From IMG/VR virus record IMGVR_UViG_3300010354_000754, positions 1 through 22,222 of that record: DNA of 22,222 nt, one strand, 5' to 3'. Positions 29 to 22,023 of the stretch are shown here, in pieces. Position 1 is the stretch's first letter. Each line of letters opens with the position of its first letter. The stretch is from a virus. The translations under genes were made by a program, and so were the position numbers. Below the pieces are notes generated by a model. It had not been told where the DNA came from. It was given only the letters and a program-made list of their open reading frames with translations, and ran no database searches.

Positions 29-370
29 TCAGCGCCGACCGCGGCGGATCACGCCGCGAATCTTGGCCTTGGAACGCTGCGCGCCAGGGTCGCCCATGGC
101 GCCGACGCGCTGGTTGCCCTCCTTGTTCCGCCACAGCCCTTCGTTCCGCTGCTTGGTGGCCTTCGTGCCGGAATAGAGCGCCTGGTTCTTACTCCGCAGC
201 CGACTACCGGTGCCGGTCAAACCTTTGCTCAGCAGCCGTTTGGTGGTCGCAGTGTTGGCCGAACGGGTGGAGCCAGACTTTGGCTTGCTGGCACTACCAC
301 CACCGCCGCCAGACCCGCCACCACCACCAGCGAAACGACCGCGGGAATCGCGCTTGTAGGTGCGGGCCAT
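29..370 (-). CDS. RGRFA-tagged small basic protein
   Basis: This 113-residue protein starts with MARTYKRDSRGRFA, the N-terminal tag shared with four other genes in the window. A glycine/serine linker follows (about residues 15-27), then a Lys/Arg-rich tail ending RRGRR with no recognisable enzyme domain. It is strongly basic, so binding to nucleic acid or to an acidic surface inside a particle is plausible; this is inference. The ATG is chosen because the tag begins exactly there and because CCGGAAACCT lies 34 nt upstream, as at its paralogues. There is no clear Shine-Dalgarno sequence. It lies 15 bp downstream of the next minus-strand gene and probably shares its transcript. It lacks the second conserved block (NRLTRDNAGRI...) found in three paralogues, so it is the minimal member of the family. 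Confidence 0.7.
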   Translation of the reverse strand: MARTYKRDSRGRFAGGGGGSGGGGGSASKPKSGSTRSANTATTKRLLSKGLTGTGSRLRSKNQALYSGTKATKQRNEGLWRNKEGNQRVGAMGDPGAQRSKAKIRGVIRRGRR

Positions 371-385
371 GAAACGTGCAGGGAG

Positions 386-1150
386 CTACCGCCTAGGTTT
401 CCGGTTGCGTCGCCGTTTCGGCGGGCCCTGCGTGTTTCTGGGGCCTGGCCGCAGGTTGTTCTTCCCGGCCTTCGGCTTGCCTTTGCCCATGTACGCCAGC
501 TGGTTGCCGTAGATCTCCCGGGCCCTCGCGGCTGGCTTGCTGCCACGCGCTGCAGCATCAGCAGCACGCTGCATTCGCCGCTGGATGGCCTTGGCGCCTG
601 GCCTGGTGCCGCTGATCCCGATCTCGACGCCAGCCAGCATCCGGTCAATCTTGTCTTTCCCGATCCGCTGCTGCATCGCCCTGGCGTTTTGGCGTTCCAG
701 CTGCCGCTTCATCGCGTCAATCCTTGGACGCTTGGACTTCACCGCATCGCTGAGCCGTTTCATCTCAGTATCAAGATCACGGACGGCGCGCTCAGCCTGG
801 CGATCCATTTGCCCCAGCCGCAGGCCAGGGGTCTTCGGGTTGAACGTCCGTACCGCACTGGCCTTGAGCGCCAGCGGCTGCCGCCTGTTCGCCCTGCCGC
901 TGGTGGGTCGCACCACGCTGCGAGCGCTGGGCCGGGGCAGGCCACCCGTGGGCCGGATCCCGTTCCCGCTGCCGGCCGCCCGGCGCCTGGTGCGGCTGAT
1001 CGTGCCAGCCGGCGCCGCTGCTCTGGTGGTGCTGCCCTTGGCTTGAGCACGACCTGGCGACCGCAGCCTGGAACCACGGCCACTGGTTTGGCCCTGATAC
1101 CCACCGCTGGCAAACCTGCCGCGTGCGTCTCGGACGTAGCGGCGGGCCAT
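386..1150 (-). CDS. RGRFA-tagged basic protein with helical middle region
   Basis: The protein has 254 residues and starts MARRYVRDARGRFASGG, a divergent copy of the family tag. Residues about 18-105 are low-complexity, rich in R, G, P and S. Residues about 110-175 are charged and probably helical or coiled-coil (RQAERAVRDLDTEMKRL and following). A later segment carries AIQRR...ARxIYxxQL, also present in the 440-residue paralogue at 4551-5873, so the two share a second module. The C-terminus is strongly basic (RNRKPRR). Its last codons overlap the CCGGAAACCT element serving the next gene. Its own start has a copy of the element 31 nt upstream and no Shine-Dalgarno sequence. I recognise no named family; the function is unknown. 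Confidence 0.7.
   Translation of the reverse strand: MARRYVRDARGRFASGGYQGQTSGRGSRLRSPGRAQAKGSTTRAAAPAGTISRTRRRAAGSGNGIRPTGGLPRPSARSVVRPTSGRANRRQPLALKASAVRTFNPKTPGLRLGQMDRQAERAVRDLDTEMKRLSDAVKSKRPRIDAMKRQLERQNARAMQQRIGKDKIDRMLAGVEIGISGTRPGAKAIQRRMQRAADAAARGSKPAARAREIYGNQLAYMGKGKPKAGKNNLRPGPRNTQGPPKRRRNRKPRR
395..404 (-). promoter_or_regulatory. CCGGAAACCT leader element upstream of gene 29-370
   Basis: Minus-strand CCGGAAACCT whose first base is 34 nt before the ATG at 370. It is embedded in the codons for the basic C-terminus (RNRKPRR) of the preceding gene, so the sequence is both coding and possibly regulatory. Confidence 0.6.
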
Positions 1151-1169
1151 GGGCTGAGCGGGGACTAGC

Positions 1170-1313
1170 TCAGGTTTCCGGTTGCGTCGGCACCGGCCGA
1201 TCGATCACCACCCGGCCAGTGCCATCAGGCCGCACGGCGATGACCTGATGCCGATGCGGCTCGCCGTTCCTCGGGCGCAGGCGGCGGCCAACGGCGGTGA
1301 CGACGGGGTTCAT
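1170..1313 (-). CDS. 47-residue basic microprotein
   Basis: An ATG on the minus strand opens a 47-codon frame starting MNPVVTAVGRRLRPRNGEP and ending PTQPET. It fills the gap between two tagged genes. Evidence that it is real: a CCGGAAA-type leader element lies 35 nt upstream of its ATG, as at neighbouring genes; it fits between flanking stops without overlap; and its composition (Arg, Val, Pro) matches its neighbours. The central stretch HQVIAVRPDGTGRVVIDRP could form a small beta hairpin. Its last codons and TGA stop lie inside the leader element of the next gene. No family is recognised. It could be a chance ORF, but position and leader favour a gene. Confidence 0.5.
   Translation of the reverse strand: MNPVVTAVGRRLRPRNGEPHRHQVIAVRPDGTGRVVIDRPVPTQPET
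1172..1181 (-). promoter_or_regulatory. CCGGAAACCT leader element upstream of gene 386-1150
   Basis: Minus-strand CCGGAAACCT within CGACGCAACCGGAAACCTGA, 31 nt before the ATG at 1150. It overlaps the TGA stop of the 47-residue microprotein. The preceding bases CGACGCAACC are identical to those before the copy at 395-404, so the repeat here extends to about 20 bp. Confidence 0.65.
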
Positions 1314-1338
1314 GGCGTGGTGGGGTGGGGAACGGCTT

Positions 1339-1348
1339 AACTTTCCGG
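1339..1348 (-). promoter_or_regulatory. Variant leader element (CCGGAAAGTT) upstream of microprotein
   Basis: Minus-strand CCGGAAAGTT shares seven leading bases with the consensus and lies 35 nt before the ATG at 1313, directly after the stop of the metallopeptidase-like gene. Position and partial identity support it as a diverged copy. Confidence 0.45.
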
Positions 1349-1349
1349 G

Positions 1350-2318
1350 TCAAGGGCCCCGGCGCACTCGGCTCCGGCGGCGAGCGGCGGGCTTCTGACT
1401 CAGGCCCTGTGCCTCGCGGTAGGCACCCATCACTTGGTAGTCGTATCGACGGCCGGTGCGCAGACCGGCATAGGTCTCGGCGATAAACTCGGCTGGGCTC
1501 GTTCGTGCATATCCGCTTACGCGACCTGCAAGGTTTCTGCGTCTCCATGATTCGCGCAGCTTGGATGCAGGGCCTCCGATGCCTGGTACTGCTTCCTTCC
1601 AATCGTCAATCCCTTTCTGGCCGCGCCGTTGGAAACGGGCTAGAGACGCCTTGTCTTTGGTGTGCTTGATCTCATGGTGGATCACGCCCATTGGAGATGA
1701 CGTTGAAAGATGCCCGCTTCTTCGGTATTCAATCGCTCTGAGCCTTGGGTTGCTCCAATACTCGGATGCTGTGTTGATTCCGATTGAGCGAACCCCTAGC
1801 AAGGCTTCGGCTATTCGCGGGTTATTTTTGTTGTTGAACTCGTAAACATTAAAGCCTTGTTTTTTGAGCCTTTTCACGGCTGTCGCAACGTTGTCCGCCG
1901 TATGACCGCTGAATCTGTTGTAAGGATTCTCCCCCTTCCTGAACCTGGCCATCGTGTTCACCGGCCGAGCGTTGGCGTTCATCAGCTCACCCGGCCGCAG
2001 CCTGCTGGTGGCTGCCGTCGCCCGGCCCTGCTGCACGTTCACCTTCGCCCGTGCGGCGCCGCTCCGGCTCACCACACCTTTCGGCGCAGCGTTCACTCGA
2101 TCGATCTGCCTGGCGCGCAAGTTCCAAGCTGCAGTCCGCAGCCGGCCGCCTCTGGCCGTTGCGCCGTTCCCGCCGACGCTGGTGATCCGCCCGGCATTGT
2201 CTCGAGTCAGCCGGTTCGTGCCCCTGCTCACCGGCTTGGCAGCAGGCCGCCCGCCACCGCTGGATCCACCGGTGCTGGCGAACCGGCCCCTGCTGTCGCG
2301 CTTGTAGGTCCTGGCCAT
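1350..2318 (-). CDS. RGRFA-tagged protein with zincin metallopeptidase-like C-terminal domain
   Basis: The 322-residue protein has three parts. Residues 1-14 are the tag MARTYKRDSRGRFA. Residues about 35-70 are a second shared block (NRLTRDNAGRITSVGGNGATARGGRL), also present in the proteins at 2929 and 4551. Residues about 125-300 form a distinct domain with HHEIKH at 214-219 (HEXXH, H215-E216-H219), followed by YARTSPAEFIAETYAGL, with Glu277 and Glu281 as candidate third zinc ligands. HEXXH followed by Y-x(n)-E-x-x-A-E is typical of zincin peptidases, including toxin-type ones carried by phages and polymorphic toxin systems. That makes it a candidate virion-borne protease. Substrate and activity are unknown. 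The C-terminus is basic (RRRSRVRRGP). The part encoding the catalytic domain is richer in A+T than the tag region, suggesting a separate origin. Confidence 0.75.
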   Translation of the reverse strand: MARTYKRDSRGRFASTGGSSGGGRPAAKPVSRGTNRLTRDNAGRITSVGGNGATARGGRLRTAAWNLRARQIDRVNAAPKGVVSRSGAARAKVNVQQGRATAATSRLRPGELMNANARPVNTMARFRKGENPYNRFSGHTADNVATAVKRLKKQGFNVYEFNNKNNPRIAEALLGVRSIGINTASEYWSNPRLRAIEYRRSGHLSTSSPMGVIHHEIKHTKDKASLARFQRRGQKGIDDWKEAVPGIGGPASKLRESWRRRNLAGRVSGYARTSPAEFIAETYAGLRTGRRYDYQVMGAYREAQGLSQKPAARRRSRVRRGP

Positions 2319-2337
2319 CCCAGCATCGCCTGATCTG

Positions 2338-2348
2338 CTGGGTTGCCG
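2338..2348 (-). promoter_or_regulatory. Degenerate leader element upstream of metallopeptidase-like gene
   Basis: The minus strand reads CGGCAACCCAG followed by CAGATCAGGCGATGCTGGG and the ATG at 2318. The stretch resembles the leader of the gene at 2929 (CCGGAAACCTGCAGCAGTGA, then AGTGATGCTGCC, then GTG), so it is probably a diverged copy. Spacing to the start is 30 nt. Confidence 0.35.
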
Positions 2349-2368
2349 CTGAGCGTTATGCCGTGGCC

Positions 2369-2378
2369 CCGGAAACCT
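2369..2378 (+). promoter_or_regulatory. CCGGAAACCT leader element upstream of gene 2400-2894
   Basis: Plus-strand CCGGAAACCTGCAG, 31 nt before the ATG at 2400. It lies in the divergent gap between the minus-strand metallopeptidase-like gene and the first plus-strand neck-type gene, and helps to choose that start. Confidence 0.6.
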
Positions 2379-2399
2379 GCAGGCATCGCGCCCCGGTCC

Positions 2400-2894
2400 A
2401 TGCCTGCACCGATCCCAAACACGATCCCGCCATGGCGGAGTTCCGATCGTGAGCAGATCCGCGGATACAGCGGATGGCCGGTGTCAACCTACAATCTGAC
2501 GCAGCTCACCGCAGCGATGAACCGGGTGGCGGAGGCCTCAGCCGATGCCGTCACCCAGCTGCAGGCCTGGATCGATGAAGTCGAGACGCTGGAGCAGGAC
2601 TGGGCGGACAAGGTGTCAGACGGCACCGCCCACTTGGGCAACGTGCAGAGCTACGAAGGCCCGGCGCCTGGAACGGCCCTCAGCAAGGACGATCGGCAGA
2701 CCAAGGCCGACGTGCTCGAGTGGGATGCCTCCCTCCTGAAGGTCTCCTACCAAGCCGGCACCCGTGGTGATTCCACCGCTGGAGGCGTGCTGCACGCCCG
2801 GGTGTCGGAGCTGAAGGGGAAGATCCTGCAGGCGATCGGCATCAAGTCCTACGACGGTGGCGCCGGCAGCGGCGCGGCGTTGCTCAGGAGCTGA
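2400..2894 (+). CDS. Putative neck/head-tail adaptor-type structural protein
   Basis: The preferred reading is 164 residues from the ATG at 2400, placed 31 nt after a leader element as at the neighbours. A GTG at 2481 (starting STYNLTQLTAAMNRV) is the main alternative and would remove a Pro-rich N-terminus of doubtful coding character. The body is mostly helical (AMNRVAEASADAVTQLQAWIDEVETLEQ), then KADVLEWDASLLKVSY and a glycine-rich end. Location just before the HK97 gp10-like gene suggests a head-tail connector role, but no diagnostic motif was recognised, so the assignment rests on position. It is the first plus-strand gene after the divergent minus-strand block and could be the first gene of a plus-strand transcript. 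Confidence 0.55.
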   Translation: MPAPIPNTIPPWRSSDREQIRGYSGWPVSTYNLTQLTAAMNRVAEASADAVTQLQAWIDEVETLEQDWADKVSDGTAHLGNVQSYEGPAPGTALSKDDRQTKADVLEWDASLLKVSYQAGTRGDSTAGGVLHARVSELKGKILQAIGIKSYDGGAGSGAALLRS

Positions 2895-2896
2895 AC

Positions 2897-2906
2897 CCGG
2901 AAACCT
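2897..2906 (+). promoter_or_regulatory. CCGGAAACCT leader element upstream of gene 2929-3579
   Basis: Plus-strand CCGGAAACCTGCAG, 32 nt before the GTG at 2929 and just after the stop codon at 2892-2894. The CCTGCAG extension matches the copy at 2369. Confidence 0.65.
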
Positions 2907-2928
2907 GCAGCAGTGAAGTGATGCTGCC

Positions 2929-3579
2929 GTGGCCCGGACCTACAAGCGTGACTCTCGCGGGCGGTTTGCTGGTGGGGGCAGCAGCTCGGGTCGGCCGGCG
3001 GCGAAGAAAGCAGCGACCAGGGCAGGCAACCGCCTAACGCGGGACAACGCAGGCCGGATCAGCTCAATCGGCGGCAATGGCGCCACGGCTCGGGGTGGGC
3101 GGCTCAAGACGGCAGCTGGGAATCAGCGGGCGAGGCAGACGGCACGGCTGAAGAGTGCTGGCGGACGGTTGAGGGGCGGGAAAGGAGGCGGCGCCGCTGT
3201 TGCCAAGCGGGTCAGAAAGCCAGACCTCAGCCAAGCAGCGTTTGAGCGGCGCGCCAATCTGACTGAGAAGCGTGCGCGGGCTGCCGAGCGTGCAGTGGCA
3301 GGGGCTGACCGGGGCTACGCCAGCAGGGGTACGCGACGCATGTTCCGTACGGCTGATGCACTTCGATCTGCTGCTGATTCCTACAGCAGCTATGCCAGAA
3401 GGGGCAAAAAGGGAGAGTTCAGCGCCGCCGATTACTTTAATACAGACCGCAGAACCAGTAGGCGAACAACCGCGCCGAAGCTGAGCAGAGCCGAGAAGGC
3501 CAGGCGAACTAGAGCAGCCAACGCTGACAAGCGCTTCCGAGAGAACATTCGCCGGATGGAGGCGGATCGCCGCCGCTGA
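2929..3579 (+). CDS. RGRFA-tagged basic protein
   Basis: This 216-residue protein begins at GTG with MARTYKRDSRGRFA, then a short Gly/Ser linker and the second shared block NRLTRDNAGRISSIGGNGATARGGRL (about residues 34-59) followed by KTAAGNQRARQ. The remainder is Arg/Lys/Ala-rich and probably helical (SQAAFERRANLTEKRARAAER), ending in ENIRRMEADRRR. No catalytic motif is visible. It sits between two neck-type genes, and its TGA overlaps the ATG of the next gene (TGATG), so it is translationally linked to structural genes. The GTG is fixed by the family tag and by the leader element 32 nt upstream. DNA binding or packaging into the particle is a plausible role but not shown. Confidence 0.7.
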   Translation: MARTYKRDSRGRFAGGGSSSGRPAAKKAATRAGNRLTRDNAGRISSIGGNGATARGGRLKTAAGNQRARQTARLKSAGGRLRGGKGGGAAVAKRVRKPDLSQAAFERRANLTEKRARAAERAVAGADRGYASRGTRRMFRTADALRSAADSYSSYARRGKKGEFSAADYFNTDRRTSRRTTAPKLSRAEKARRTRAANADKRFRENIRRMEADRRR

Positions 3580-4052
3580 TGCCCACCGACTTCGCCCCCT
3601 ACGCGAACCTCCGCCTGCTGATCCCACAGCCGGCAGCGGCACCGGCCAACTTCCGCTCGGGCGTGCCGGCTAGCACCGCCAGCTGGATCCTGCACGTCTT
3701 CGCCAAGGGCACCACCACCGCCGCCCCGGGCACGCCGTCGATCGACCCGCGCACCCGCACCCTGGAGGGCTACATCACCGCCTTCGCCACGCTCCCGGCC
3801 AACACCTCCTGGCTGCAGGCCACCGCCGGCCTCGCCTGGGACACCACCGGCCTGGCACCCGCAGGCCTCCTGGCCGGTGCATCAGGCCGTGGGTTCCTCG
3901 GGGTGCTCGAATCACTCCCCACCGTCACCGGTCAGCAAGGCGAGGCCACGATCACCGCCCTCGGCGGCGCTTTTGGCCCTGGTGGCATCGGCGCTGAGCT
4001 CCGCGCCCAGCTGGGCGATGCGATCACCGTCGAGCTGCAGTTCGCCGGCTGA
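3579..4052 (+). CDS. Putative head-tail joining (neck) protein
   Basis: The protein has 157 residues starting MPTDFAPYANLRLLIPQP, rich in Ala, Gly, Thr and Pro with a beta-type pattern (TLEGYITAF, EATITALGGAF, DAITVELQFAG). Its ATG overlaps the stop of the upstream gene by one base, and it is followed three bases later by the HK97 gp10-like gene. A small beta-rich protein in this position of a siphovirus cluster is commonly a head-closure or stopper protein. I recognise no specific motif, so the role is inferred from position and size. Confidence 0.5.
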   Translation: MPTDFAPYANLRLLIPQPAAAPANFRSGVPASTASWILHVFAKGTTTAAPGTPSIDPRTRTLEGYITAFATLPANTSWLQATAGLAWDTTGLAPAGLLAGASGRGFLGVLESLPTVTGQQGEATITALGGAFGPGGIGAELRAQLGDAITVELQFAG

Positions 4053-4055
4053 GCC

Positions 4056-4517
4056 ATGTCGATCAACGTCCGCGTCAACACCGGCAACCTGCAGGCCCGC
4101 GCCCAGCAGGCGGCCCGCCGCGCCTCCGAAATCGTGATGGGGGAGCTGTTCGCCGCGTTCCAGCAGTCCTTCACGGCTAAGGCATGGGACTGGCCACGCA
4201 TCACTCAACGCACCGCCGGCAGCCCAGTCGGCAGCCCTCGCAACCTGATCGACACCGGCAACCTCCGCCAGACCGGCAGCTACCAGATGACCGGGCCCTA
4301 TCAGGCCACGTTCCGCTGGAGCGCCAACTACGCCACCGCTGTCCACGAAGGCGCCTACATCTACCCGTGGGGCAACCGTGACGCCGATCGGGTCTACCTC
4401 CCGCCACGCCCCTGGACCCGCGCCGTGCTCGGCCAGGAAGATGCACCCGGCGTGAAGCCCTACAACCTCGGCGATCGGCTCCAGAACGTCTGGCTCGCTC
4501 AGTTCCGCAGGCGGTGA
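4056..4517 (+). CDS. HK97 gp10-like neck/tail-completion protein
   Basis: This is a 153-residue protein. Residues about 1-45 are a helical start (NLQARAQQAARRASEIVMGEL), and the later stretch FRWSANYATAVHEGAYIYPWG carries YAxxVHEG, characteristic of the HK97 gp10-like / tail-completion families of head-tail connectors. It is followed by YLPPRPWTRAVL, equivalent to the usual 'RPFLxPA' segment. LIDTGNLRQTGSYQ matches the family's 'DTGxLRxS' motif. The length is normal. Such proteins sit at the head-tail junction and are needed to complete or attach the tail. It directly follows the putative head-closure gene. Confidence 0.8.
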   Translation: MSINVRVNTGNLQARAQQAARRASEIVMGELFAAFQQSFTAKAWDWPRITQRTAGSPVGSPRNLIDTGNLRQTGSYQMTGPYQATFRWSANYATAVHEGAYIYPWGNRDADRVYLPPRPWTRAVLGQEDAPGVKPYNLGDRLQNVWLAQFRRR

Positions 4518-4527
4518 TCGGAAACCT
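4518..4527 (+). promoter_or_regulatory. TCGGAAACCT leader element upstream of gene 4551-5873
   Basis: Plus-strand TCGGAAACCTGAGC immediately after the stop codon at 4515-4517 and 33 nt before the ATG at 4551. The CCTGAGC extension matches the copies at 1172-1181 (minus) and 8514-8523. Confidence 0.6.
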
Positions 4528-4550
4528 GAGCTGATGATGGCGGCTCAGGC

Positions 4551-5873
4551 ATGGCCCGGACTTACAAACGCGACAGCCGCGGGCGGTTTGCCTCGGGTGG
4601 TGGATCGGGCAGCGGCAGGCCGGCCACCAAGGGCCTGAGCACCGGAAAGAACCGCCTCACCCGTGACAACAGCGGCCGGATCACGGGCCAGGGTGGATCG
4701 GGCGCCACTGCACGCGGCGGCAGGCTGAAGACCGCTGCAGGGAACGCCAGGGCTCGGCAGGTCGGCCGGCTGAAGGGCGCACCGGCAGGCACCGTCAGCA
4801 GGGGCGGCAAGGCTAGGGGTGCGGCGCCGGTGGCGAAGGCCAAGACCGTCAAGCCCGCAGCCAGGGTCACCAAGAAGGCCGCAGCCGAGGCCAAGCTCGA
4901 TCGGGTGATCGCCAGGGCCCAAAACATCGGATTCCGCCGATTCGACAAGGAAGGTCGCAGCGAACGGGCAAGGAATGCAGTGCAGGTCGAGCGGCGGGCC
5001 AGGAACTGGATCAACATGCTTGGCACGAACACCAGAAAGCCGCCGAAGACGGTGGCAGAGATGAAGGCAAATGCGGCCAAGGTCATGGCTGACCGCAAGA
5101 AAGTGAAGGCAAAAGCAGAGATACAATCAACCAAATGGGCGATCAGTCGCTCTCGCGCACAACGGGCGCCGAAGTTTGATCAAACGGCAATTCAGCGGCG
5201 CAGGAATCGCGTAATTGAGGCCGACAAGCGCCGTGGCGGGATCTCCAACAATGCAACGATCGAAGCCAGGAATATCTACGACGCCCAGCTGCGCGGCCAG
5301 CTTCCAAAGCAGCGCGGCGCACTGCTCCCAGGCATGAAAGCCGCCGGCCAGAGGGCCCGCAACGCCAACGTGGTGCGTGGTGCAAAGCCCAAAGTCGGCG
5401 CTCCAAAGGGTGGAGCCGGAGCGCAGATCAGGGCCAGGGGCAAACGGGGAGGACAGCTCGCCGCACCGTCTGGGCCAAGCATGCGGCAACGGCTGCGTGC
5501 TGCAGCCAAGGTCAAGCTGAGCCCAATGCAGCGGTCTGAGGCCAAGTACGCCAAGCGCAAGTACGGGGTGAGCTCCACAGTGAGCAACCCTGGCCGGCCC
5601 TCTATGCGCCTTCCGCGCAGGACCACCTCAGGAGGCGCGCGGATTGCCGTGAGGGGGAACAAGGCCGCAACCACCAGGGCCTACAAGCAGCGTGTCTCCG
5701 CAACGCTCGGCAACACCCGCAAGACCGACATGGCCACCATGGGCATCGGTGGCGGCCTGCGCAAACTCTCCAACCCCCGCATCCGCAAGCAGCAGACCGG
5801 GATGACGCAGCTCAGCCTGGTGGGCCGCAACAAACCTCTCGTGCGCTTCCGCCCCGCCAACGGCCGCCGTTAA
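4551..5873 (+). CDS. Large RGRFA-tagged basic protein
   Basis: At 440 residues this is the longest of the five tagged proteins. It begins MARTYKRDSRGRFASGG, then the second shared block NRLTRDNSGRITGQGGSGATARGGRL (about residues 34-59). Residues about 60-200 are Lys/Arg/Ala-rich, probably helical. About residues 215-265 contain AIQRRRNR...EARNIYDAQL, the module shared with the protein at 386-1150. The rest is basic and rich in Gly, Ser and Pro, ending VRFRPANGRR. There is no catalytic motif and no membrane segment. It lies between the gp10-like neck gene and the tail-chaperone gene, where core siphovirus genes are usually adjacent, so it looks inserted. A packaged nucleic-acid-binding or ejected protein is a hypothesis. 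Confidence 0.7.
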   Translation: MARTYKRDSRGRFASGGGSGSGRPATKGLSTGKNRLTRDNSGRITGQGGSGATARGGRLKTAAGNARARQVGRLKGAPAGTVSRGGKARGAAPVAKAKTVKPAARVTKKAAAEAKLDRVIARAQNIGFRRFDKEGRSERARNAVQVERRARNWINMLGTNTRKPPKTVAEMKANAAKVMADRKKVKAKAEIQSTKWAISRSRAQRAPKFDQTAIQRRRNRVIEADKRRGGISNNATIEARNIYDAQLRGQLPKQRGALLPGMKAAGQRARNANVVRGAKPKVGAPKGGAGAQIRARGKRGGQLAAPSGPSMRQRLRAAAKVKLSPMQRSEAKYAKRKYGVSSTVSNPGRPSMRLPRRTTSGGARIAVRGNKAATTRAYKQRVSATLGNTRKTDMATMGIGGGLRKLSNPRIRKQQTGMTQLSLVGRNKPLVRFRPANGRR

Positions 5874-5881
5874 GCCGCCAG

Positions 5882-5891
5882 CCGGAAACCT
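5882..5891 (+). promoter_or_regulatory. CCGGAAACCT leader element upstream of tail chaperone gene
   Basis: Plus-strand CCGGAAACCTACAG, 34 nt before the GTG at 5916, in the gap following the stop of the 440-residue tagged gene. The element therefore also precedes an ordinary structural gene, not only tagged genes. Confidence 0.6.
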
Positions 5892-5915
5892 ACAGAACCC
5901 ACCCACCGGCATCCC

Positions 5916-6674
5916 GTGCCACAGCTCCCCTTCGTTGTCGCGCCCAAGCGCGAGACGCGCCTCATTGAGGCTGAAGTCAACGGCGAAATCTGCTCCCTTG
6001 AGTTTCCAGTCTTCGGCGCCCTTCGCTCCGGGGAGCTCATCGACATCCGTGAGCACGAATACCAGGCCGACATCTACCGCGAATCGTCGCGCCTCGCTGA
6101 TGCCCTCGTTGCGGACGGCACCCCTGAAACCGAAGCGCAGCGCATCGCCATCCGCATCATCTCCACCCGCATGGGCGTGCCGGTGCCGCTTGATGACCCC
6201 GAGCAGCGCGCCATGCTCCGTCACGCCGATCTGGTGGCCAGCATTCAAGTCGCCCTCGCCGAGGCCTACGACCAGCTCACTCTTCGCACCGTCACCGCCC
6301 TCATCTCCCGCCGGCTGCCCGGCTGCGAAGACTGGACCGCAGCCGACAGCGAAACCCTCCCCGGCCCCTTGCAGGACGCCATCGCAGCCTTCGCCAACGC
6401 CGAGAAATCAGCCAAGACCCCCGACCGCTCACCTGAAGAGGTCGTGCAGGAGATGACCGAGACGCTGGGAAAGCTCGCGCCGCCGGATTCACCGGAACCG
6501 CCATCGACGCCGCCGGCACTCCCGCTGGGCTCCCCCAGCCCATCGACTGGCGAGCCCTCTACTGGCGATGCCGCCGCCTGTGGCCTCACGCCGCCGAATT
6601 CAACCCCGACCGATTCGCATCCCTCACCCTCCCCTACATCATCGAGGCGATCGAAGAAGGCGAACGCTGGCTGA
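5916..6674 (+). CDS. Tail assembly chaperone, short (G-like) form
   Basis: The zero-frame product has 252 residues, starting at GTG with MPQLPFVVAPKRETRLIEAEV. Its N-terminal half contains an acidic beta segment (NGEICSLEFPVFGALRSGELIDI) of the sort found at the start of siphovirus tail chaperones, followed by helices. From residue about 187 it becomes Pro/Ser/Thr-rich with no fold character, while the overlapping -1 frame becomes clearly coding. This matches the lambda G / G-T arrangement, in which most ribosomes make G and a minority shift to make the fusion. Its position between neck and tail tube genes is slightly unusual, since chaperones normally follow the tube gene. The start is supported by the leader element, without a Shine-Dalgarno sequence. 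Confidence 0.65.
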   Translation: MPQLPFVVAPKRETRLIEAEVNGEICSLEFPVFGALRSGELIDIREHEYQADIYRESSRLADALVADGTPETEAQRIAIRIISTRMGVPVPLDDPEQRAMLRHADLVASIQVALAEAYDQLTLRTVTALISRRLPGCEDWTAADSETLPGPLQDAIAAFANAEKSAKTPDRSPEEVVQEMTETLGKLAPPDSPEPPSTPPALPLGSPSPSTGEPSTGDAAACGLTPPNSTPTDSHPSPSPTSSRRSKKANAG

Positions 6675-7195
6675 AGGAACAGCTGCACCTCCACGAGCAG
6701 CCCATTGCCTTTCTCCATCAGCGGCTGGTGGCCGTCAACACCACCGACGCCAAGCTCATCCCGCCGCTGGATCAGCTCTACCTCTTCGGCGATACCCAGC
6801 CCGGCAGCCGCCCGCCGTCAGAGGCCGGTGCCGCCATGCTTGCGCTCATCAGCTCCAGCCTGTTTCCCACCTGGGCCCTCGCGTTCTACGAACCCCTGTC
6901 TCAGGCCGGCCAGGGCCACACCCCGCCACCGCTGCTGGCGCTCATCGCTGCCGATGCCATCCTCCTGGCGCCGCAGCAGGCGCCCGGCGGCTGGCGCGGG
7001 TTCCTCATCGCAGAGGGCACAACTCAGGGCCAGCTGCGGCCGTTTCATTGGCCTGGTGATCCAGCTCCAGCGTTCTGGCTTGCTGTGCCTCGCGCTTCTG
7101 CAGAAGCGGGAGCAGTGTGGGCGGAGGAAGCTGCATTTCTTGCCACTCAGCCATCTCCGCATACACCCGATTCACCCGGATCTCAGCTTCTGTGA
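5916..7195 (+). CDS. Tail assembly chaperone, -1 frameshift fusion (G-T-like)
   Basis: Predicted join of 5916-6473 with 6473-7195 by a -1 shift, giving about 426 residues. After the GGGAAAG site the new frame reads A-R-A-A-G-F-T-G-T-A-I-D and then PIDWRALYWRCRRLWPHA, EFNPDRFASLTLPYIIEAI and LHEQPIAFLHQRLVAVN. This is well-formed protein sequence with aromatic and charged patterning, but it has no good independent start or ribosome site before about 6728. G-T fusions bridge the tail tube and tape measure during tail assembly and leave the finished tail. The last 190 bases overlap the converging AP2-like gene on the other strand, so the C-terminus could be shadow sequence beyond the functional part. 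Confidence 0.6.
6467..6473 (+). promoter_or_regulatory. Programmed -1 ribosomal frameshift slippery site GGGAAAG
   Basis: The heptamer GGGAAAG is in the correct phase (G GGA AAG) relative to the GTG at 5916. It fits X-XXY-YYZ and is the same heptamer used by lambda G/T. Slipping back one base joins the reading frame that is strongly coding from 6473 to at least about 7000. Only a weak candidate stimulatory hairpin was noticed (CCGG-ATTCA-CCGG, just downstream). Confidence 0.7.
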
Positions 7196-7307
7196 TGCTC
7201 GCACAATACCCCAGGCTCCAGTAGCGGCCCTGCCACCACACCCGCGCCTGAAACGGTCGCTTCTTCATGTGCGGGCAGTGGCAGACGCCACGGGGGTAAC
7301 AGCTCAC
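7005..7307 (-). CDS. Small AP2-like domain protein
   Basis: A minus-strand protein of 100 residues from a GTG at 7307, or 87 from the ATG at 7268. Residues about 16-50 (RPFQARVWWQGRYWSLGYCASITEAE) show the AP2-like pattern: basic/aromatic strand, G-R, aromatic-S-L-G-Y, then an EA-rich helix. That pattern is known from phage integrases, HNH endonucleases and small DNA-binding proteins. The remainder is helical and Gln/Leu-rich, without an HNH motif. With the GTG start the N-terminus has three cysteines and a histidine (SCYPRGVCHCPH). The GTG is favoured by the leader element 38 nt upstream. It converges on, and overlaps, the end of the frameshifted chaperone by about 190 bp. A DNA-binding or regulatory role is inferred. 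Confidence 0.55.
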   Translation of the reverse strand: MSCYPRGVCHCPHMKKRPFQARVWWQGRYWSLGYCASITEAEIRVNRVYAEMAEWQEMQLPPPTLLPLLQKREAQQARTLELDHQANETAAAGPELCPLR

Positions 7308-7335
7308 AGGCGGGCGGAGAGCGCAGGCTGCCGCT

Positions 7336-7345
7336 AGGTTTCCGC
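7336..7345 (-). promoter_or_regulatory. GCGGAAACCT leader element upstream of AP2-like gene
   Basis: Minus-strand GCGGAAACCTAGCGG, 38 nt before the GTG at 7307. The CCTAGGCGG/CCTAGCGG extension resembles the copy at 395-404. Confidence 0.55.
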
Positions 7346-7415
7346 GCTCCCATTAAGCCGTGGCGGCGGCTTGAGCAGCGTTGGACCGCTGGAGGGGAAG
7401 CATTCATGCGCCCTT

Positions 7416-8255
7416 ATGTCTTCGGTCTATTCGCAGGCCTACGGCTACAACTTCTTCTTTCAGGTGCTCAAGAAAGGGTCGGTGAACCTTTCCGCCCTCC
7501 TGCCCAATGCCGGTCTGGGTGCCGGCAAATTCATCGACAACACCACGGTGCTGGCGAACACCTCCCTGGTGGTTCCCACTGGCACCGCCAGCACCTTCAA
7601 GCTGCTGGCCGGCGAAGGCAAGGTGGTCACCAAGGCCGCCATTGCCTCCAACGTTGCCACCCTGACCTTCGCCGCCGCCCCCGGCATCGCCAACGGCTCC
7701 ACCATCGCAGTGGCTGAGCTGCCAGCACCGTTTGAGGCGCTGAACGGCACCCGGGTGGTGACCGCCGTGACCACCTCGGCACCGTTCACCCTGTCCTTCG
7801 CACTCACCGCCGCGAACATCGCCGAGGCGACTGTCGCCAGCGGCCAGGTGGTCGGCACCTCCCTCCTGCTGGATGGCACCGACAACCCGGTTCGCCTGCT
7901 GGGCCTCACCAACTGCGCCCCGAGCGAGTCAGAGAACGAGGAGACCGTCACCACCTACGACGACGAGGCCAAGTCGTTCGATACCTCGATCGCCACTTCC
8001 AAATCGATGAGCTGGAGCCTGGAAGGCGTCACCAACCACAGCGACGCCGCCTACAAGCTCCTCCGAATCGCCGCCAAGGAGTCGGTGCGCGAGGGCCTGA
8101 TGGTCAAATACGCCCGGATTGGCCCCGTTGGCTTCAATGAAACCAGCTACGGCTACGGCCGCTTCACCGGTTTTGAGGAATCGCCTGCGGCTGGTGAGAT
8201 CGTGAAATACAGCACCACCCTTCGTGCTTACGGTCCCTACGAACTGGAATTCTGA
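7416..8255 (+). CDS. Major tail tube protein
   Basis: The protein has 279 residues from the ATG at 7416 (MSSVYSQAYGYNFFFQVLKK). The C-terminal half has the tail-tube look: TSIATSKSMSWSLEGVTNHSDAAYKLLRIAAKESVREGLMVKY, then GFEESPAAGEIVKYSTTLRAYGPYELEF, i.e. beta strands around one helix with a closing 'xxxYSxTLxxxGxxExE' strand. Residues about 30-145 are a Thr/Ala/Val-rich beta region that may be an inserted, surface-exposed domain. A GGAGG at 7391-7395 lies about 20 nt from this ATG, while an out-of-frame ATG at 7406 is closer. A TTG at 7371 would add 15 residues but is less likely. A terminator follows directly, consistent with the high expression expected of a tube protein. Confidence 0.75.
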   Translation: MSSVYSQAYGYNFFFQVLKKGSVNLSALLPNAGLGAGKFIDNTTVLANTSLVVPTGTASTFKLLAGEGKVVTKAAIASNVATLTFAAAPGIANGSTIAVAELPAPFEALNGTRVVTAVTTSAPFTLSFALTAANIAEATVASGQVVGTSLLLDGTDNPVRLLGLTNCAPSESENEETVTTYDDEAKSFDTSIATSKSMSWSLEGVTNHSDAAYKLLRIAAKESVREGLMVKYARIGPVGFNETSYGYGRFTGFEESPAAGEIVKYSTTLRAYGPYELEF

Positions 8256-8530
8256 GCTGGAGGAGATGGGGCCCCGGCTGCTTCGGCAGCTGGGGTTTTT
8301 TCTTGCCGTGGCAGCAGTGCTGCAGCCTGTTGCAGCGCAAATGCGCGATTGACGATCGCGTAATCGAGCACCTGATGGCTGATCTGCCGTAGCGCCTCCA
8401 GATCCCCAGGCCCCGCGCCATCAATCAGCGTGCGCCACTGGTTGAAGCGGAACTGTTCATGCAGCGGCAGTCCGTCCATTGGTGAGTGGCGTTTCGGGAG
8501 CTTGCCGGGCGCTTTGGAAACCTGAGCCAT
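8237..8530 (-). CDS. Small helical hypothetical protein, antisense to surrounding tail genes
   Basis: The minus-strand ATG at 8528-8530 opens 97 residues, MAQVSKAPGKLPKRHSPMDG..., with a helical core LHEQFRFNQWRTLI...LEALRQISHQVLDYAIVNRAFALQQAAALLP and an Ala/Pro-rich tail. An ATG at 8479 is an alternative start. It fills a 273-bp gap that has no plus-strand gene. Its first bases share CATG with the start of the plus-strand gene at 8529, so the two start codons overlap divergently. Its end overlaps the tube gene and the plus-strand terminator hairpin. The core is well balanced and reads like a real protein, but no family is recognised. It may be non-coding spacer. Confidence 0.4.
   Translation of the reverse strand: MAQVSKAPGKLPKRHSPMDGLPLHEQFRFNQWRTLIDGAGPGDLEALRQISHQVLDYAIVNRAFALQQAAALLPRQEKTPAAEAAGAPSPPAQNSSS
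8272..8301 (+). terminator. Intrinsic terminator after tail tube gene
   Basis: Stem CCCCGGCTGC (8272-8281) pairs with GCAGCTGGGG (8286-8295) through 10 pairs including one G-U, closed by a TTCG tetraloop and followed by six T (8296-8301). It lies 17 bp after the tube gene stop on the plus strand, where partial termination would separate tube expression from the downstream tape measure operon. Confidence 0.85.
8514..8523 (+). promoter_or_regulatory. TTGGAAACCT element at tail-terminator start
   Basis: Plus-strand TTGGAAACCTGAGCC lies only 15 nt before the ATG at 8529, unlike the 30-38 nt seen elsewhere, and is the last copy in the window. It matches the core and the CCTGAGC extension of the copies at 4518 and 1172. 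It may be a relic or act differently here. Confidence 0.4.
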
Positions 8531-8957: not shown

Positions 8958-11900
8958 GCGACTTTCAGGTTCAGGTCGGCGGCGATTTCTCCGAACTGCT
9001 CCGCGGGTTCCAGCAGCTGGAGGCCCGTGCGCAACAGTCCGGCAATGCCGTGGGCAAGGGCCTTGCCGATGGCATCCAGGGGTTCAGCAGCAAATCCATC
9101 GCCGCGCTCCAGTCCGAGCTCAGCCGCCTTGAGCAACGTCAGGTCAAGGTGGCGGTGGACTCCACCGCCTTTGAGAAGACCGGCAAGCGGATCACTGAAA
9201 TCAAGGCGCTCATTGCCGAGATTGAGCGCCGCCGGCTCACCGTTGGCGTTGACGACCGATCCATCACCGCGCTGCAGTCCAAGCTCGCGCAGTTGCAGTC
9301 CAAGCAGACACGGCTCGCGGTTGACTCGCGCGAATTTGCCGATGCGCAGAGTGAGATCAACGCGCTGGAGAAGGAGCTCAACGATGTCAGCCGCCGCAAG
9401 CTCCTGATCAACGCTGACCCGTCCAGCTTGATCGCCCTGCAGGCCAAACTCGGCGATCTGCAGGGCGAGCTGGGCCGCGTTGCAATCGGCAGCCAGCGAT
9501 TCCAAGAGCTCACCACCGCCATCCAGGCTGCCGAGCGCGAACTCTCAAGGGCCGGCGAATCCGCTGATCAGTTCCGCATCCTGGATGGCGTGGTGCAGGG
9601 CATCGCCTTCAGCCTCTCCAATTCGGTGGTGGACGGTGCTCAGCGGGCCCTTTCTGCGCTTGGCGGTGTCGTTGCTGAGTTTGGCCGGCTTGATACCGAG
9701 CTGCGCAAGGCGGCTGCCGCCAGCGGCGAGGCCGGCGCCTATGAATCCCTCGCCAGGTCCGTTGATCAGGTCGGCATCGAGGCGGCCGGCACCACCTTGG
9801 AAGTGGCGCAGCTCAACACCGAGCTGATCCGCGGCGGCCTCACCGTGGATCAGGCCAATGCCAGCCTCGCGGCGATCGTCCGCGGCGCAGAGGCCACCGG
9901 CACCAGTTTTGCCGCCTTCGGTTCGGTGGTGTCCGCCAGCCTCAAGTCCTTCGGCCTCGAAGCAAGGGACGCCCAGCGGGTGGTCGATGCCCTCGTGACC
10001 GGCGCCAACGCATCGGCCGCCAGCGCTGAGGGGCTTGGGCTGGCATTCAAATACGCCGCACCGGTGGCAAAGCTGCTCGGCGTTTCCATCGAAGACCTGG
10101 CGCTCGCCGCCGGCCTGCTCACCAACGCCGGCATCGATGCCTCCGAAGCTGGCGTCACCCTGCGAAATGGCTTTTCAAAGCTCGCCAGCGCTGCGCCCAA
10201 GGCTGGTGGGGCGATGCAAGACCTCACGGGTCAATCAGCGATGGCCGCCAAGGCGATGCGGTCGCTTGGGGTGGACATCTACAACACCGATGGAACCCTC
10301 AAGCCGATGGAGACCACCCTCCTTCAGCTGAAGGGGGCATTTGAGAAGCTCGACCCGGCATCGAAGATCCGGCTGGCGGCAAACCTCTTCGGCGGGGAAG
10401 ACGACGGCGCCAAGTGGCTGGCGTTGCTCAACCAGAGCGAGGCCGAAATTCGGCGCATGGCACAGACCATGGCCAACACCAAGGGTGCAGCCGATGTCGC
10501 ACGTGATGCGATGACGGGCTTTGAGCTCAAGCTCAAGCAGCTCGATGGCACAGTCGGCAGCCTTGCAATCACCTTCGGCTCAGTCGCAGCCGGCGCGCTG
10601 ATCCCGTTTGTCGATGCGGCAAACACCATCGTCGGCGCCATCACGGGCCTGCCCGGGCCGGTGAAAACCCTCGGCGCTGGCATGGTGCTGCTCACCGGCG
10701 CCACCGTTGCGGCGACTGCAGCGCAGATCGCCTTCACCCGGGCACTGCAGGCCGAGGCCGTGCAGGGCGCCATCAGCGCCGTTGGGGCCTTTGCCGGCGC
10801 GCTCCGCACCCAGTTGGCGGGGGCGCTGTCGGTGGCGGCCGTGGGATTCAGCACCCTGGCGACAGCGATCAAGGGATTCAGCGCACAATCGTTCTTCGCC
10901 TCGATCGCACAGCTCGCTGCTGCCATCCGAACGCAGCTGGCAGGCGCCGCCACGGTGGCGATCACAGCATTCAGCGCCCTTGCGCAATCCATCAAATCCG
11001 GCGCATTCGCCTCAGCACTTCAAAACCTGATCGGCCAGGTCGGATTGGTGACCGCTGGCATTGCTCGATTCGCCGCAACTGTCGGGCCCATTGCTCTGGT
11101 GGTCGGCATCGTTGCTAAGGCCATGGAAGGCGGCGCCGAGGCAGGGGAGCGATACAAGGCAGCCAACGACACGATCAGCGAAGCGCTCGTCAAGCTGCGT
11201 GATGAGCTGGGCAAGACCGACATCAAGCTCGCCGACAGCCGCAACGCAATCCAGAAGCTCTGGGATTCGTTTGGCGAAGGGGCTCGCGTCATCGGCGACA
11301 TTGACGCCACCAACAAGATCACGGAGTCGATCGCCAAGCTCAACCAGGAAGCCAGCGGCTACTTGGGCACGATCAAGCAGACCGGATCGCTCACTGATGA
11401 GCAGCGGTCGAAGTCCCTGGCCTTTGTCGCCGCACTCCAGAGCAGTAGCGGAGCTGTTCAGCAACTGGTCAAGGAATATGAGACCCTCGCCAGCAAGGCT
11501 GCACTGATCGGCGACGATCGCCAGGCGGAGGTCTACCGCGAAGCGGCAACGCTGCTCCAGCAGCAGGCCAATGCCGCCAACAACACCTCGGCGGCGCTGT
11601 CCAAGAAGGCACAGATCACAAACCAAGACATCGTGGCCACCGGCAAGGCCACCGAAGTGACCAAGGCACAGGCCGATGCCGAAAAGCAGCTGGCTGATGT
11701 CATCCGAACGCAACCCGTTCGCAACTTGGATGCGCAGTTGACCGCTGGGCAGTCGCTGCTTGGGCTGACGCAAGCGCTGTCAGAGCAAGAGCAATCGCGC
11801 TTCGCAGTAACAAAAGCTGGAATTGAGTATGAACTAAGCCAAGCAGAAAAACGCAAGGCATCAGAATCCACGATTCGGCGAATTAAAGACGAACTTAACA

Positions 11901-17632: not shown

Positions 17633-17640
17633 AAGGAAAG

Positions 17641-17663
17641 CTAGAGACAACCCCTGTCTCTAG
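17641..17663 (+). promoter_or_regulatory. Hairpin between Shine-Dalgarno and GTG start
   Basis: CTAGAGAC (17641-17648) and GTCTCTAG (17656-17663) form a perfect 8-bp inverted repeat with a 7-base loop. It sits exactly between a purine-rich AAAGGAAAG (17632-17640) and the GTG at 17663. Folding would bring the ribosome site next to the start codon. No T-run follows, so it is not a terminator. Confidence 0.6.
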
Positions 17664-20007: not shown

Positions 20008-20178
20008 ATGAGCGCATCAATGGCCGATCAACCCACGCCTAGCCAAGACGTTGACTATCGGCCGCTCATTGATGCCCTGCAGCTCCGTACCGCTGCGAAC
20101 CGTTATGCAATGCGGCAACGCCGCCAGCTGCAGCGGGCCCAAGCGCAAATTGTGCGCAAACTGATGCCGGAAAGCTGA
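20008..20178 (+). CDS. 56-residue basic helical protein
   Basis: An ATG at 20008 opens MSASMADQPTPSQDVDYRP followed by a Gln/Arg-rich helix (ALQLRTAANRYAMRQRRQLQRAQAQIVRKLMPES). A second in-frame ATG at 20020 is an alternative start. It fills the gap between the adhesion block and the scaffold gene and returns to the GC-rich composition of the head genes. The amphipathic helix could contact DNA or other virion proteins; no family is recognised. Confidence 0.5.
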   Translation: MSASMADQPTPSQDVDYRPLIDALQLRTAANRYAMRQRRQLQRAQAQIVRKLMPES

Positions 20179-20201
20179 ACCGCACTCAGCCGTGATGGCA
20201 A

Positions 20202-21008
20202 ATGCGCTTCAAGTTCCCCACCATCCGCCAGGAACTCCTGGCCCAGTTCCAGTACACCGCAGACCAGGATCCCCCGGGCGATTTCGACGCTGGTGGCAGC
20301 TCTGATCAAAGCGAACCCTCCCCTGGTGGGGAGGCTGACCCCAACGAAGGGCTCAAACGTGCTCTGGAGGCAGAACGCAGGCTGAACCGCCAGAACGCTG
20401 CCCGCGCCGCCCAACTCGAGGCGCAGCTCAAGGAAGTGGGCCAGGTGGATCCGAAGCTGCTGGCCGAAGCCCAGGCCAAGGCCGAGGCCGCCGAGCAGCA
20501 AAAACAACTGCTGGAGCAGCAGATCAACAACCGCTTGGCCGACGCCGAGCGGAAGTATCAGGAGCAGCTTGGTCGCCTCACCAATGAGCTGCAGAGCAAG
20601 GCATCAGCTGCCGAACGCGAGGCTTTGCGGGTAAAGACCGAACGCGAGTTTCTCGCTGCCAAGGGCCTGATGGAGGCCTCCACCATCGACGGCCGCACGC
20701 CGTTCGACTACATCTGGCAGCTCTACGGCAACCAGTTCGCCGAAGATCGCAACGGGCTGTTCCTCGCTGACGCAGACGGCAGCCCCAGGCTTGACGAGGA
20801 AACCGGCAAACGGATCACGCCCGCTGAATTCTTCGCCAAGCTCCGCAAAGACCCGGTGCATGGGATGCACTTTCAGCCGGAATACGGCTCGGGTTCTGGT
20901 GCCCGTGGCGGCCGTGATGGGCGGGTGAACAACACCGCTGACCTGTCGAAGGTGCCCACTTCGCAGCTGTTCCGCGAGACGTTCGGAGCCAAACGCCGAA
21001 CGGCTTAA
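20202..21008 (+). CDS. Putative capsid scaffolding protein
   Basis: The protein has 268 residues. Residues about 20-50 are acidic and disordered (DPPGDFDAGGSSDQSEPSPGGEADP). Residues about 50-160 are a long charged coiled coil (LKRALEAERRLNRQNAARAAQLEAQL, AQAKAEAAEQQKQLLEQQI). A compact segment follows (TPFDYIWQLYGNQFAED), and the C-terminus is basic (FRETFGAKRRTA). A disordered acidic start, a coiled-coil middle and a basic C-terminal tail is the classic plan of tailed-phage scaffolds, and the gene sits directly before the major capsid gene. No separate maturation protease is visible in the window. Confidence 0.65.
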   Translation: MRFKFPTIRQELLAQFQYTADQDPPGDFDAGGSSDQSEPSPGGEADPNEGLKRALEAERRLNRQNAARAAQLEAQLKEVGQVDPKLLAEAQAKAEAAEQQKQLLEQQINNRLADAERKYQEQLGRLTNELQSKASAAEREALRVKTEREFLAAKGLMEASTIDGRTPFDYIWQLYGNQFAEDRNGLFLADADGSPRLDEETGKRITPAEFFAKLRKDPVHGMHFQPEYGSGSGARGGRDGRVNNTADLSKVPTSQLFRETFGAKRRTA

Positions 21009-21099: not shown

Positions 21100-22023
21100 A
21101 TGGGCCTGACCCTTCTGGAGGCGGCCAAATCCGAACGTGATCCGGCTCGCCTCGCCGTTATTCGTGAACTCGCTGAAGGCGAGCTGATGCGCGTGATCCC
21201 CTTCCAAGATGTGGAAGGTGAGGGCGTGTTCTACGACGTTGAGCAGGAACTTCCCTCCGTGGGATTCCGTGGCATCAACGAAACACTCGATGCCTCCTAT
21301 GGCGTGCTCAACCCTCAATCCGAACGCCTGAAGGTGCTCGGTGCTGAGGTCGATGTGGATACTTCCATCATCGACATGCGCGGCCCCGACGTGGTGGGCG
21401 ATCAAGTGCGCATGAAGGTCACTTCCATGCGGATGACCTTTGAAGACCACTTCATCAACGGCGACGAATCCGCCAACCCTCGCGCCTTTGATGGCCTCAA
21501 GCGCCGGATCAACGCCGGCAGCTCCCAGGCGATCAACATGAACAACGGTGCGCTGTCGTTGTCGGCGCTGGATGAGCTGATCGACGCCGTGGACGCCATG
21601 GGCGGCCAGAAGGTGCTGATCATGAACAAGAAGATGCGCCGCCGGCTGAATACCGCCAGCCGGGCCACCAGCATCGGCGGGTTCATCAACTACGAGCTCG
21701 ACAGCTTCGGCCGCCGGGTGACGCAGTACGGGGATGTGCCCATCATCGTGACCGACGTGAACGCCCAGAACCAGCCGGTTCAGCCGTTCACCGAAACCAG
21801 CTCCAGCACTTCGATCTACTGCGTGGCGCTGGGTGATCTGCTCACCACCGCGATCCAAGGCCGTGCCCGCGGTCAATTCGGGATCTCGGTGCGGGCTCTG
21901 GGCGAGGTGCCTGATGCGCCGGTCGATCGCACCCGCATTGAGTGGTATTGCGGCATGGCCATTTACAACGGCCGTTCTGCATCCCGCCTCTATGGCGTGA
22001 CCGATGCGGCCGTGGTCGCCTGA
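21100..22023 (+). CDS. Major capsid protein (HK97-fold)
   Basis: The protein has 307 residues, beginning MGLTLLEAAKSERDPARLAVIRELAEGELMRVIPF. The N-terminal pattern (TLLEAAK ... I-x-x-x-A ... VIPF) is followed by VFYDVEQELPSVGFRGINETLDASYGVLNPQSERLKVLGAEVDVD, typical of one family of HK97-fold capsid proteins. DELIDAVDAMGGQKVLIMNKKMRRRL and DVPIIVTDVNAQ match the P-domain region. RIEWYCGMAIYNGRSASRLYGV is the closing A-domain/axial strand pattern. It lacks an obvious cleaved prodomain, so assembly probably relies on the separate scaffold gene upstream. No Shine-Dalgarno sequence is clear at the ATG; the structured leader lies immediately upstream. Confidence 0.88.
   Translation: MGLTLLEAAKSERDPARLAVIRELAEGELMRVIPFQDVEGEGVFYDVEQELPSVGFRGINETLDASYGVLNPQSERLKVLGAEVDVDTSIIDMRGPDVVGDQVRMKVTSMRMTFEDHFINGDESANPRAFDGLKRRINAGSSQAINMNNGALSLSALDELIDAVDAMGGQKVLIMNKKMRRRLNTASRATSIGGFINYELDSFGRRVTQYGDVPIIVTDVNAQNQPVQPFTETSSSTSIYCVALGDLLTTAIQGRARGQFGISVRALGEVPDAPVDRTRIEWYCGMAIYNGRSASRLYGVTDAAVVA

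Follow-up and report, generated by a model that had tools for sequence, protein, structure and literature searches.

The window analysed here, a linear fragment of 22,222 bp from the IMG/VR database (IMGVR_UViG_3300010354_000754), carries a major capsid protein gene, a scaffold-like gene, a tail-chaperone-like gene, several genes whose products share an N-terminal tag, and a short repeated element (the box) that stands at set distances before start codons on both strands (Table 1). The first-pass annotation had described this element before nine genes in the left part of the window, and had considered that it might be a -35-like promoter box, a translation element or a cassette boundary. The repeat is genuine and more extensive than first described, and comparison with related viruses points to the repeated GGAAACCT box as, most likely, the target of a sigma factor of a cyanobacterial virus family, which would switch on the late (virion-building) genes.

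Exact copies of CCGGAAACCT were recovered at 395(-), 1172(-), 2369(+), 2897(+) and 5882(+), copies with one mismatch at 4518(+) and 7336(-), and the variant GGAAAGTT at 1339(-) gave a good matrix score. The copy at 2338(-), GCGGCAACCC, is present but only marginal, and may be non-functional. The nine start codons and their spacings were correctly assigned, several being backed by orthologues in relatives that start behind the same motif, including those of the small open reading frames at 1313 ('VTAVGR') and 7307 ('CYPRGVCHCP'). The statement that no copy lies between 8.5 and 22.2 kb has to be corrected, as three had been overlooked: GGAAACCT at 8516, 13 nucleotides (nt) 5' of ATG 8529, and GGAAAGCT at both 17635 (28 nt 5' of GTG 17663) and 20169 (33 nt 5' of ATG 20202). 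Across 200 dinucleotide-shuffled versions of the window, CCGGAAACCT occurred 0.06 times on average (maximum 1) compared with five actual copies, and GGAAA[CG]CT 1.45 times (maximum 4) compared with 11. When two mismatches were allowed the window count (24 vs 19.7) was not significant, so that the significance is carried by the core. A further GGAAAGCT at 6468 was rejected as a motif copy because it belongs to a heptamer, GGGAAAG (nt 6467–6473, in-frame G GGA AAG), inside the tail-chaperone-like gene (nt 5916–7195), where the -1 frame is open to nt 7195. This heptamer is typical of programmed -1 frameshift sites such as that of lambda G/GT, and explains the recurrence of GGAAAGCTCG inside the same gene of the relatives.

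The best named match to the capsid protein was that of the Prochlorococcus siphovirus PSS2 (46.7%). A capsid search of IMG/VR returned 33 loci, mostly 62–96% identical, and the sole match among genomes was a Clostridia relative. In ten longer relatives (20–64 kb, capsid 77–95% identical) the pattern GGAAASCT occurs 5–16 times per record vs 0–3 times when the pattern is reversed; the corresponding counts in two distant records (capsid 38–39%) are 3 and 2 vs 4 and 8. Most records are fragments, with gene starts taken from a simple caller. Upstream regions (463) were collected with a codon-usage gene caller from the window and seven relatives, and among these CGGAAA was the top 6-mer (65 vs 5.0 expected). 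The core CCGGAAASCTRAGSCA (S = C/G, R = A/G) lies upstream of about one in five genes, and expectation-maximisation identified about 98 sites with the consensus CCGG(A/C)AA(C/G/A)CTRAGSCA. Conservation extends over about 16 bp (CC GGAAASCTRAGSC A), with sharp edges, from -2 to +13 relative to the first G. The aligned sites show no conservation from -60 to -3, hence no -35 element was found, and 3' of the box they show no second conserved element, only a mild enrichment of C. For many strong matches that seemingly lacked a start codon, the caller had overlooked one at the right spacing; others were intragenic. The matrix count in relatives that had been proposed at first pass returned an extreme positional bias.

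This arrangement bears on the suggestion that the repeat is a recombination or cassette-boundary sequence travelling with genes. Five window genes behind or near the motif do share an N-terminal tag like MARTYKRDSRGRFA, but the motif also accompanies many unrelated genes, standing on a single side of them at a fixed distance from the start codon, and the flanks are not conserved, leaving this explanation with next to no chance of being correct.

Spacing between the first G and the start codon follows a bimodal distribution. Among 174 nonredundant sites, 11 have a spacing of 13 nt (all before ATG), 150 a spacing of 27–37 nt, and just five fall between these classes (14–26 nt). In the long class, position +13 is A in 63% and G in 25% of sites (purine 88%), and the preceding position is C in 66% and T in 13% (pyrimidine 79%), the sites having been picked on columns up to +8 only. 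Bacterial transcription starts are usually marked by a pyrimidine followed by a purine. In the 13-nt class, the A of the ATG falls exactly on +13. Orthologous genes can be found in both classes, examples being the 'AWVE' gene (13 or 32 nt) and the 'PTLNPLW' gene (13 or 28–31 nt). A 5-base Shine–Dalgarno sequence was present in 0/62 motif genes vs 63/401 others (p = 9e-5). One long-class leader, that of the 'AWVE' gene at 11637 of locus L019, contains AAGGAGG, so a Shine–Dalgarno sequence can occur in such a leader. Upstream ATG triplets are not avoided in the leaders (22 vs 15.5 in shuffles), contrary to what scanning would predict, and a search of Rfam gave no relevant match.

The spacing classes also bear on the proposal that GGAAAC is a -35 element of the extracytoplasmic function (ECF) type, which would place the transcription start about 35 nt further on, close to the start codon. 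The motif has a superficial likeness to GGAAC and the long-class spacing would suit such a promoter, but the 13-nt class would then initiate inside the gene, no conserved -10 element follows at 15–17 bp, and the sigma factor of these viruses (see below) is of the SigB/SigF rather than the ECF type and has no recognisable region 4. The ECF proposal fails on these points and is very improbable.

A protein with a sigma70 region 2 is encoded in 6/10 records, covering all six relatives of at least 39 kb, and each of these carries one such gene. In the five records where it was read, the protein has 260–283 amino acids, with 58–82% mutual identity and 34–37% identity to PSS2 gp003 over about 170 amino acids. 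In one of the records bearing it (G002, locus L019), the capsid protein shares 95% identity with that of the window. Pfam detected region 2, a region-3-like helix-turn-helix weakly, and no region 4. A profile of 31 members of the family matched the structures of SigB (1.5e-17) and SigF (4e-17), mostly over regions 2–3, and an AlphaFold model (mean predicted local distance difference test (pLDDT) 77, predicted template modelling score (pTM) 0.38) returned sigma factors in Foldseek. A promoter lacking a -35 element would be in keeping with a sigma factor whose region 4 does not function. A kinship of the box with the -10 element of FliA (GCCGATAA) was weighed, and was dropped because the sigma fits SigB/SigF better. 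A search for T7-type RNA polymerase (PF00940) gave no match in the 10 records, although the search was weak, given that the records are fragmentary and control genomes were likewise unmatched.

The sigma family is encoded in 74 viral loci. Using a matrix trained on the window and seven relatives only, correctly spaced matches made up 45/56 of those in loci with a sigma 35–50% identical and 15/15 at 25–30% identity, while capsid relatives without a sigma match gave one matrix match in 90 kb. In de novo 6-mer counts the motif ranked first in every sigma group, and AGGAGG ranked first in the group without the sigma. The association of motif and sigma holds to sigma identities as low as about 25%, although data from loci of shared descent do not prove binding. 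In the most distant sigma group (L141–L151), GTAACC and GGTAAA likewise show enrichment 5' of starts, and the pattern suggests a box whose third base changes from sigma to sigma.

The association was also seen in cultured cyanophages. In S-CBS2, S-CRES2 and PSS2, a member of this sigma family is encoded directly after the large terminase gene (terL). The relaxed form GGNANNCTA is found 26–35 nt before genes 22, 19 and 8 times, respectively (0.3, 0.2 and 0.1 expected); this pattern test with expectations was used in place of an expectation-maximisation run on the named phages, which over-called (at least 80 sites per genome). GGNANNCTA precedes 22/57 structural, packaging or lysis genes vs 2/56 genes of DNA/nucleotide metabolism and similar functions (p = 4e-6), the categories being our own sorting of the deposited annotation. 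In PSS2 the box precedes portal, head, tape-measure and baseplate genes. As in the uncultured relatives, no -35 element is conserved in these three phages. The authors of the PSS2 genome expected a specific regulon for the group 3 sigma factor ORF003 (PMC2784084), while the standard predictor used in that study returned only sigma70-type promoters and no target sequence for ORF003 (PMC2784084). The searchable literature, which leaves most subscription papers outside its coverage, contained no promoter for this sigma and no earlier report of the box sequence.

Taken together, the box is best read as a late promoter of a PSS2-like cyanobacterial siphovirus that is recognised by a phage sigma factor and gives rise to messages that are leaderless or carry leaders of 14–24 nt, an interpretation to which we assign a probability of about 0.78. 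The box GGAAANCT, at about -13 to -6, would act as a -10-type element one helical turn before the start. Host RNA polymerase core carrying the phage SigB/SigF-like sigma (of which regions 2–3 alone are recognisable) would recognise it without use of a -35 element, and transcription would begin 13 nt beyond the first G, on the purine. The resulting message would either begin with 5'-AUG or have a leader of 14–24 nt without a Shine–Dalgarno sequence. Leaders of 0 or 14–24 nt, with hardly any of 1–13 nt, are what would be expected if very short leaders were unusable. We infer initiation, its exact position, the role of this sigma and the mode of translation from comparative evidence, which in this respect supports the earlier suggestion of a promoter with nearly leaderless transcripts and a sigma factor encoded outside the window, so that the earlier interpretation as a whole stands in part. 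A single box without a -35 element, a sigma factor in the same phages and a position before late genes were all found, as in phage-sigma-dependent single-element late promoters.

Several observations weigh against this interpretation. The sigma gene, which the first pass had proposed to look for, was located in the relatives but the window fragment has none of its own, and common ancestry confounds the co-occurrence of motif and sigma. Promoters usually show a looser distance to the start codon than is seen here, S-CBS2 has a less marked purine signal at +13 (68%), and, given the low pTM of the sigma model, a vestigial region 4 may be present. PSS2, S-CBS2 and S-CRES2 also encode a second sigma. 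The last point is relevant to the possibility that the late promoter is read by a host sigma, by a second phage sigma or with the help of a phage activator, and not by a gp003-like sigma alone. Activators would be invisible from the box, but each relative of the window has just one sigma70 region-2 gene and the motif tracks the gp003-like family across great divergence, making another reader distinctly unlikely.

A translation element acting at the RNA level is a weaker rival to the promoter. In this model the mRNA copy of the motif would attract the ribosome or a phage protein, with the start codon brought near through a hairpin or simple adjacency. The fixed distance relative to the start codon, the lack of Shine–Dalgarno sequences in motif genes and the hairpins between box and start at several window copies would all be accommodated. 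Perfect stems of at least 5 bp between box and start codon occur at 5/11 window copies (0.9 expected, p = 0.003), and stems of at least 6 bp at four (0.2 expected). Further stems in the window are at nt 2378–2386/2400–2408, where the inverted repeat at the box of 2369–2384(+) includes the start codon, and at nt 2316–2325/2336–2345. Outside the window there is a weak excess of stems (14/142 vs 8.8, p = 0.07), and a scan of viral contigs for the pattern of one stem sequence gave mostly unrelated loci. The hairpin was rejected as a general element or core of a translation signal since, striking as it is in the window, general folding of 150 leaders shows no excess (mean z -0.2). A translation element also gives no reason for the gap at 14–26 nt or for the pyrimidine/purine step at +12/+13, and leaves the sigma co-occurrence and the restriction to late genes unexplained; we regard it as unlikely.

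Initiation at +13 would leave most of the 5' hairpin arm out of promoter-initiated RNA, whereas read-through RNA would contain it. In phage T4, a start-proximal hairpin of gene e is cut by a promoter in this arrangement (PMC3014915). It is conceivable, though doubtful, that the start position gates translation, messages being read from their 5' end while read-through RNA is locked by the hairpin overlapping the promoter. Such a gate is hypothesised for the phage of the window, where it would lie before about half of the promoter-bearing genes. The scaffold-like gene has in its leader, just 5' of the start, a separate small stem resembling GGC-GTGAT-GCC that is kept from phage to phage, changes occurring in pairs (window nt 20169–20202, L014, L016, L019, L026, L035 and PSS2 L068).

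Table 1. Boxes and associated features in the 22,222-bp window, with predicted transcription start sites (TSS)
Feature	Sequence	Position (nt)	Strand	Predicted start and leader	Inverted repeat or remark
Promoter box (putative)	CCGGAAACCTAGGCGG	389–404	-	TSS G389, 19-nt leader to ATG 370	
Promoter box (putative)	CCGGAAACCTGAGCTA	1166–1181	-	TSS A1166, 16-nt leader to ATG 1150	1154–1159/1168–1173
Variant box (putative)	CCGGAAAGTTAAGCCG	1333–1348	-	TSS G1333, 20-nt leader to ATG 1313	
Marginal copy	GCGGCAACCC	2338–2347	-		5' of ATG 2318; 2316–2325/2336–2345
Promoter box (putative)	CCGGAAACCTGCAGGC	2369–2384	+	start near 2384, 16-nt leader to ATG 2400	
Promoter box (putative)	CCGGAAACCTGCAGCA	2897–2912	+	TSS A2912, 17-nt leader to GTG 2929	2907–2912/2922–2927
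Promoter box (putative)	TCGGAAACCTGAGCTG	4518–4533	+	TSS G4533, 18-nt leader to ATG 4551	4525–4531/4543–4549
Promoter box (putative)	CCGGAAACCTACAGAA	5882–5897	+	TSS A5897, 19-nt leader to GTG 5916	
Promoter box (putative)	GCGGAAACCTAGCGGC	7330–7345	-	start near 7330, 23-nt leader to GTG 7307	
Promoter box (putative)	TTGGAAACCTGAGCCA	8514–8529	+	TSS is A of ATG 8529 (leaderless mRNA)	13-nt class; orthologues also 13 nt
Promoter box (putative)	AAGGAAAGCTAGAGAC	17633–17648	+	start near 17648, 15-nt leader to GTG 17663	17641–17649/17655–17663
Promoter box (putative)	CCGGAAAGCTGAACCG	20167–20182	+	TSS G20182, 20-nt leader to ATG 20202	scaffold-like gene; box kept before orthologues
Major capsid protein gene		21100–22023	+		by homology; query for finding relatives; without a box itself

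The N-terminal tag (MARTYKRDSRGRFA or similar) is common to five basic proteins that diverge afterwards and are encoded on both strands, at nt 29–370(-), 386–1150(-), 1350–2318(-), 2929–3579(+) and 4551–5873(+), with more in the relatives. No Pfam family was matched by the tag proteins. The product of 1350–2318(-) contains HHEIKHTKD, which resembles a zinc-metallopeptidase motif.

In 2009 a regulon was predicted for this viral sigma factor with no promoter to go with it; the box offers a candidate target sequence, and one that can be tested in cultured S-CBS2, S-CRES2 and PSS2. If the reading is correct, a promoter at about one-fifth of genes, with transcription starts tied to start codons, would reveal the layout of late expression across a large group of viruses of cyanobacteria. 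It would also aid the annotation of gene starts and late genes in many uncultured viral genomes. The near-empty interval at 14–26 nt would represent a natural experiment on the shortest usable leader of a bacterial mRNA.

Among the closest known systems is PSS2 itself, in which ORF003 is a homologous sigma with the same location after terL, and for which a candidate target sequence is now available. The late promoters of T4 (gp55, gp33, gp45) have an 8-bp box about one helical turn upstream of the start and no -35 element (PMC2988020). The promoters proposed here are alike in both respects, and the start-proximal hairpins of T4 recall the inverted repeats of the window (PMC3014915). However, the T4 box is TATAAATA, whereas the viruses described here have GGAAANCT or GGNANNCTA, a SigB/SigF-like sigma and a leaderless class. 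The phiEco32 sigma factor gp36 uses a single element, tAATGTAtA, with the start 6–8 bp downstream (PMC8948821). The phage sigma, the single element and the 6 bp between the end of the box and the predicted start are comparable, although the box sequences are unrelated and the promoters here are far more numerous and tied to start codons. Because box sequence and sigma type differ, the box is not classed as a member of either the T4 or the phiEco32 type. A SigB promoter consists of GTTTAA, a 15-bp spacer and GGGTAT (PMC9847131). As in SigB/SigF promoters, the -10-type element of the viral box opens with GG, and the sigma profile matches SigB and SigF best, but the box has no -35 element (no GTTTAA is found) and its remainder differs.

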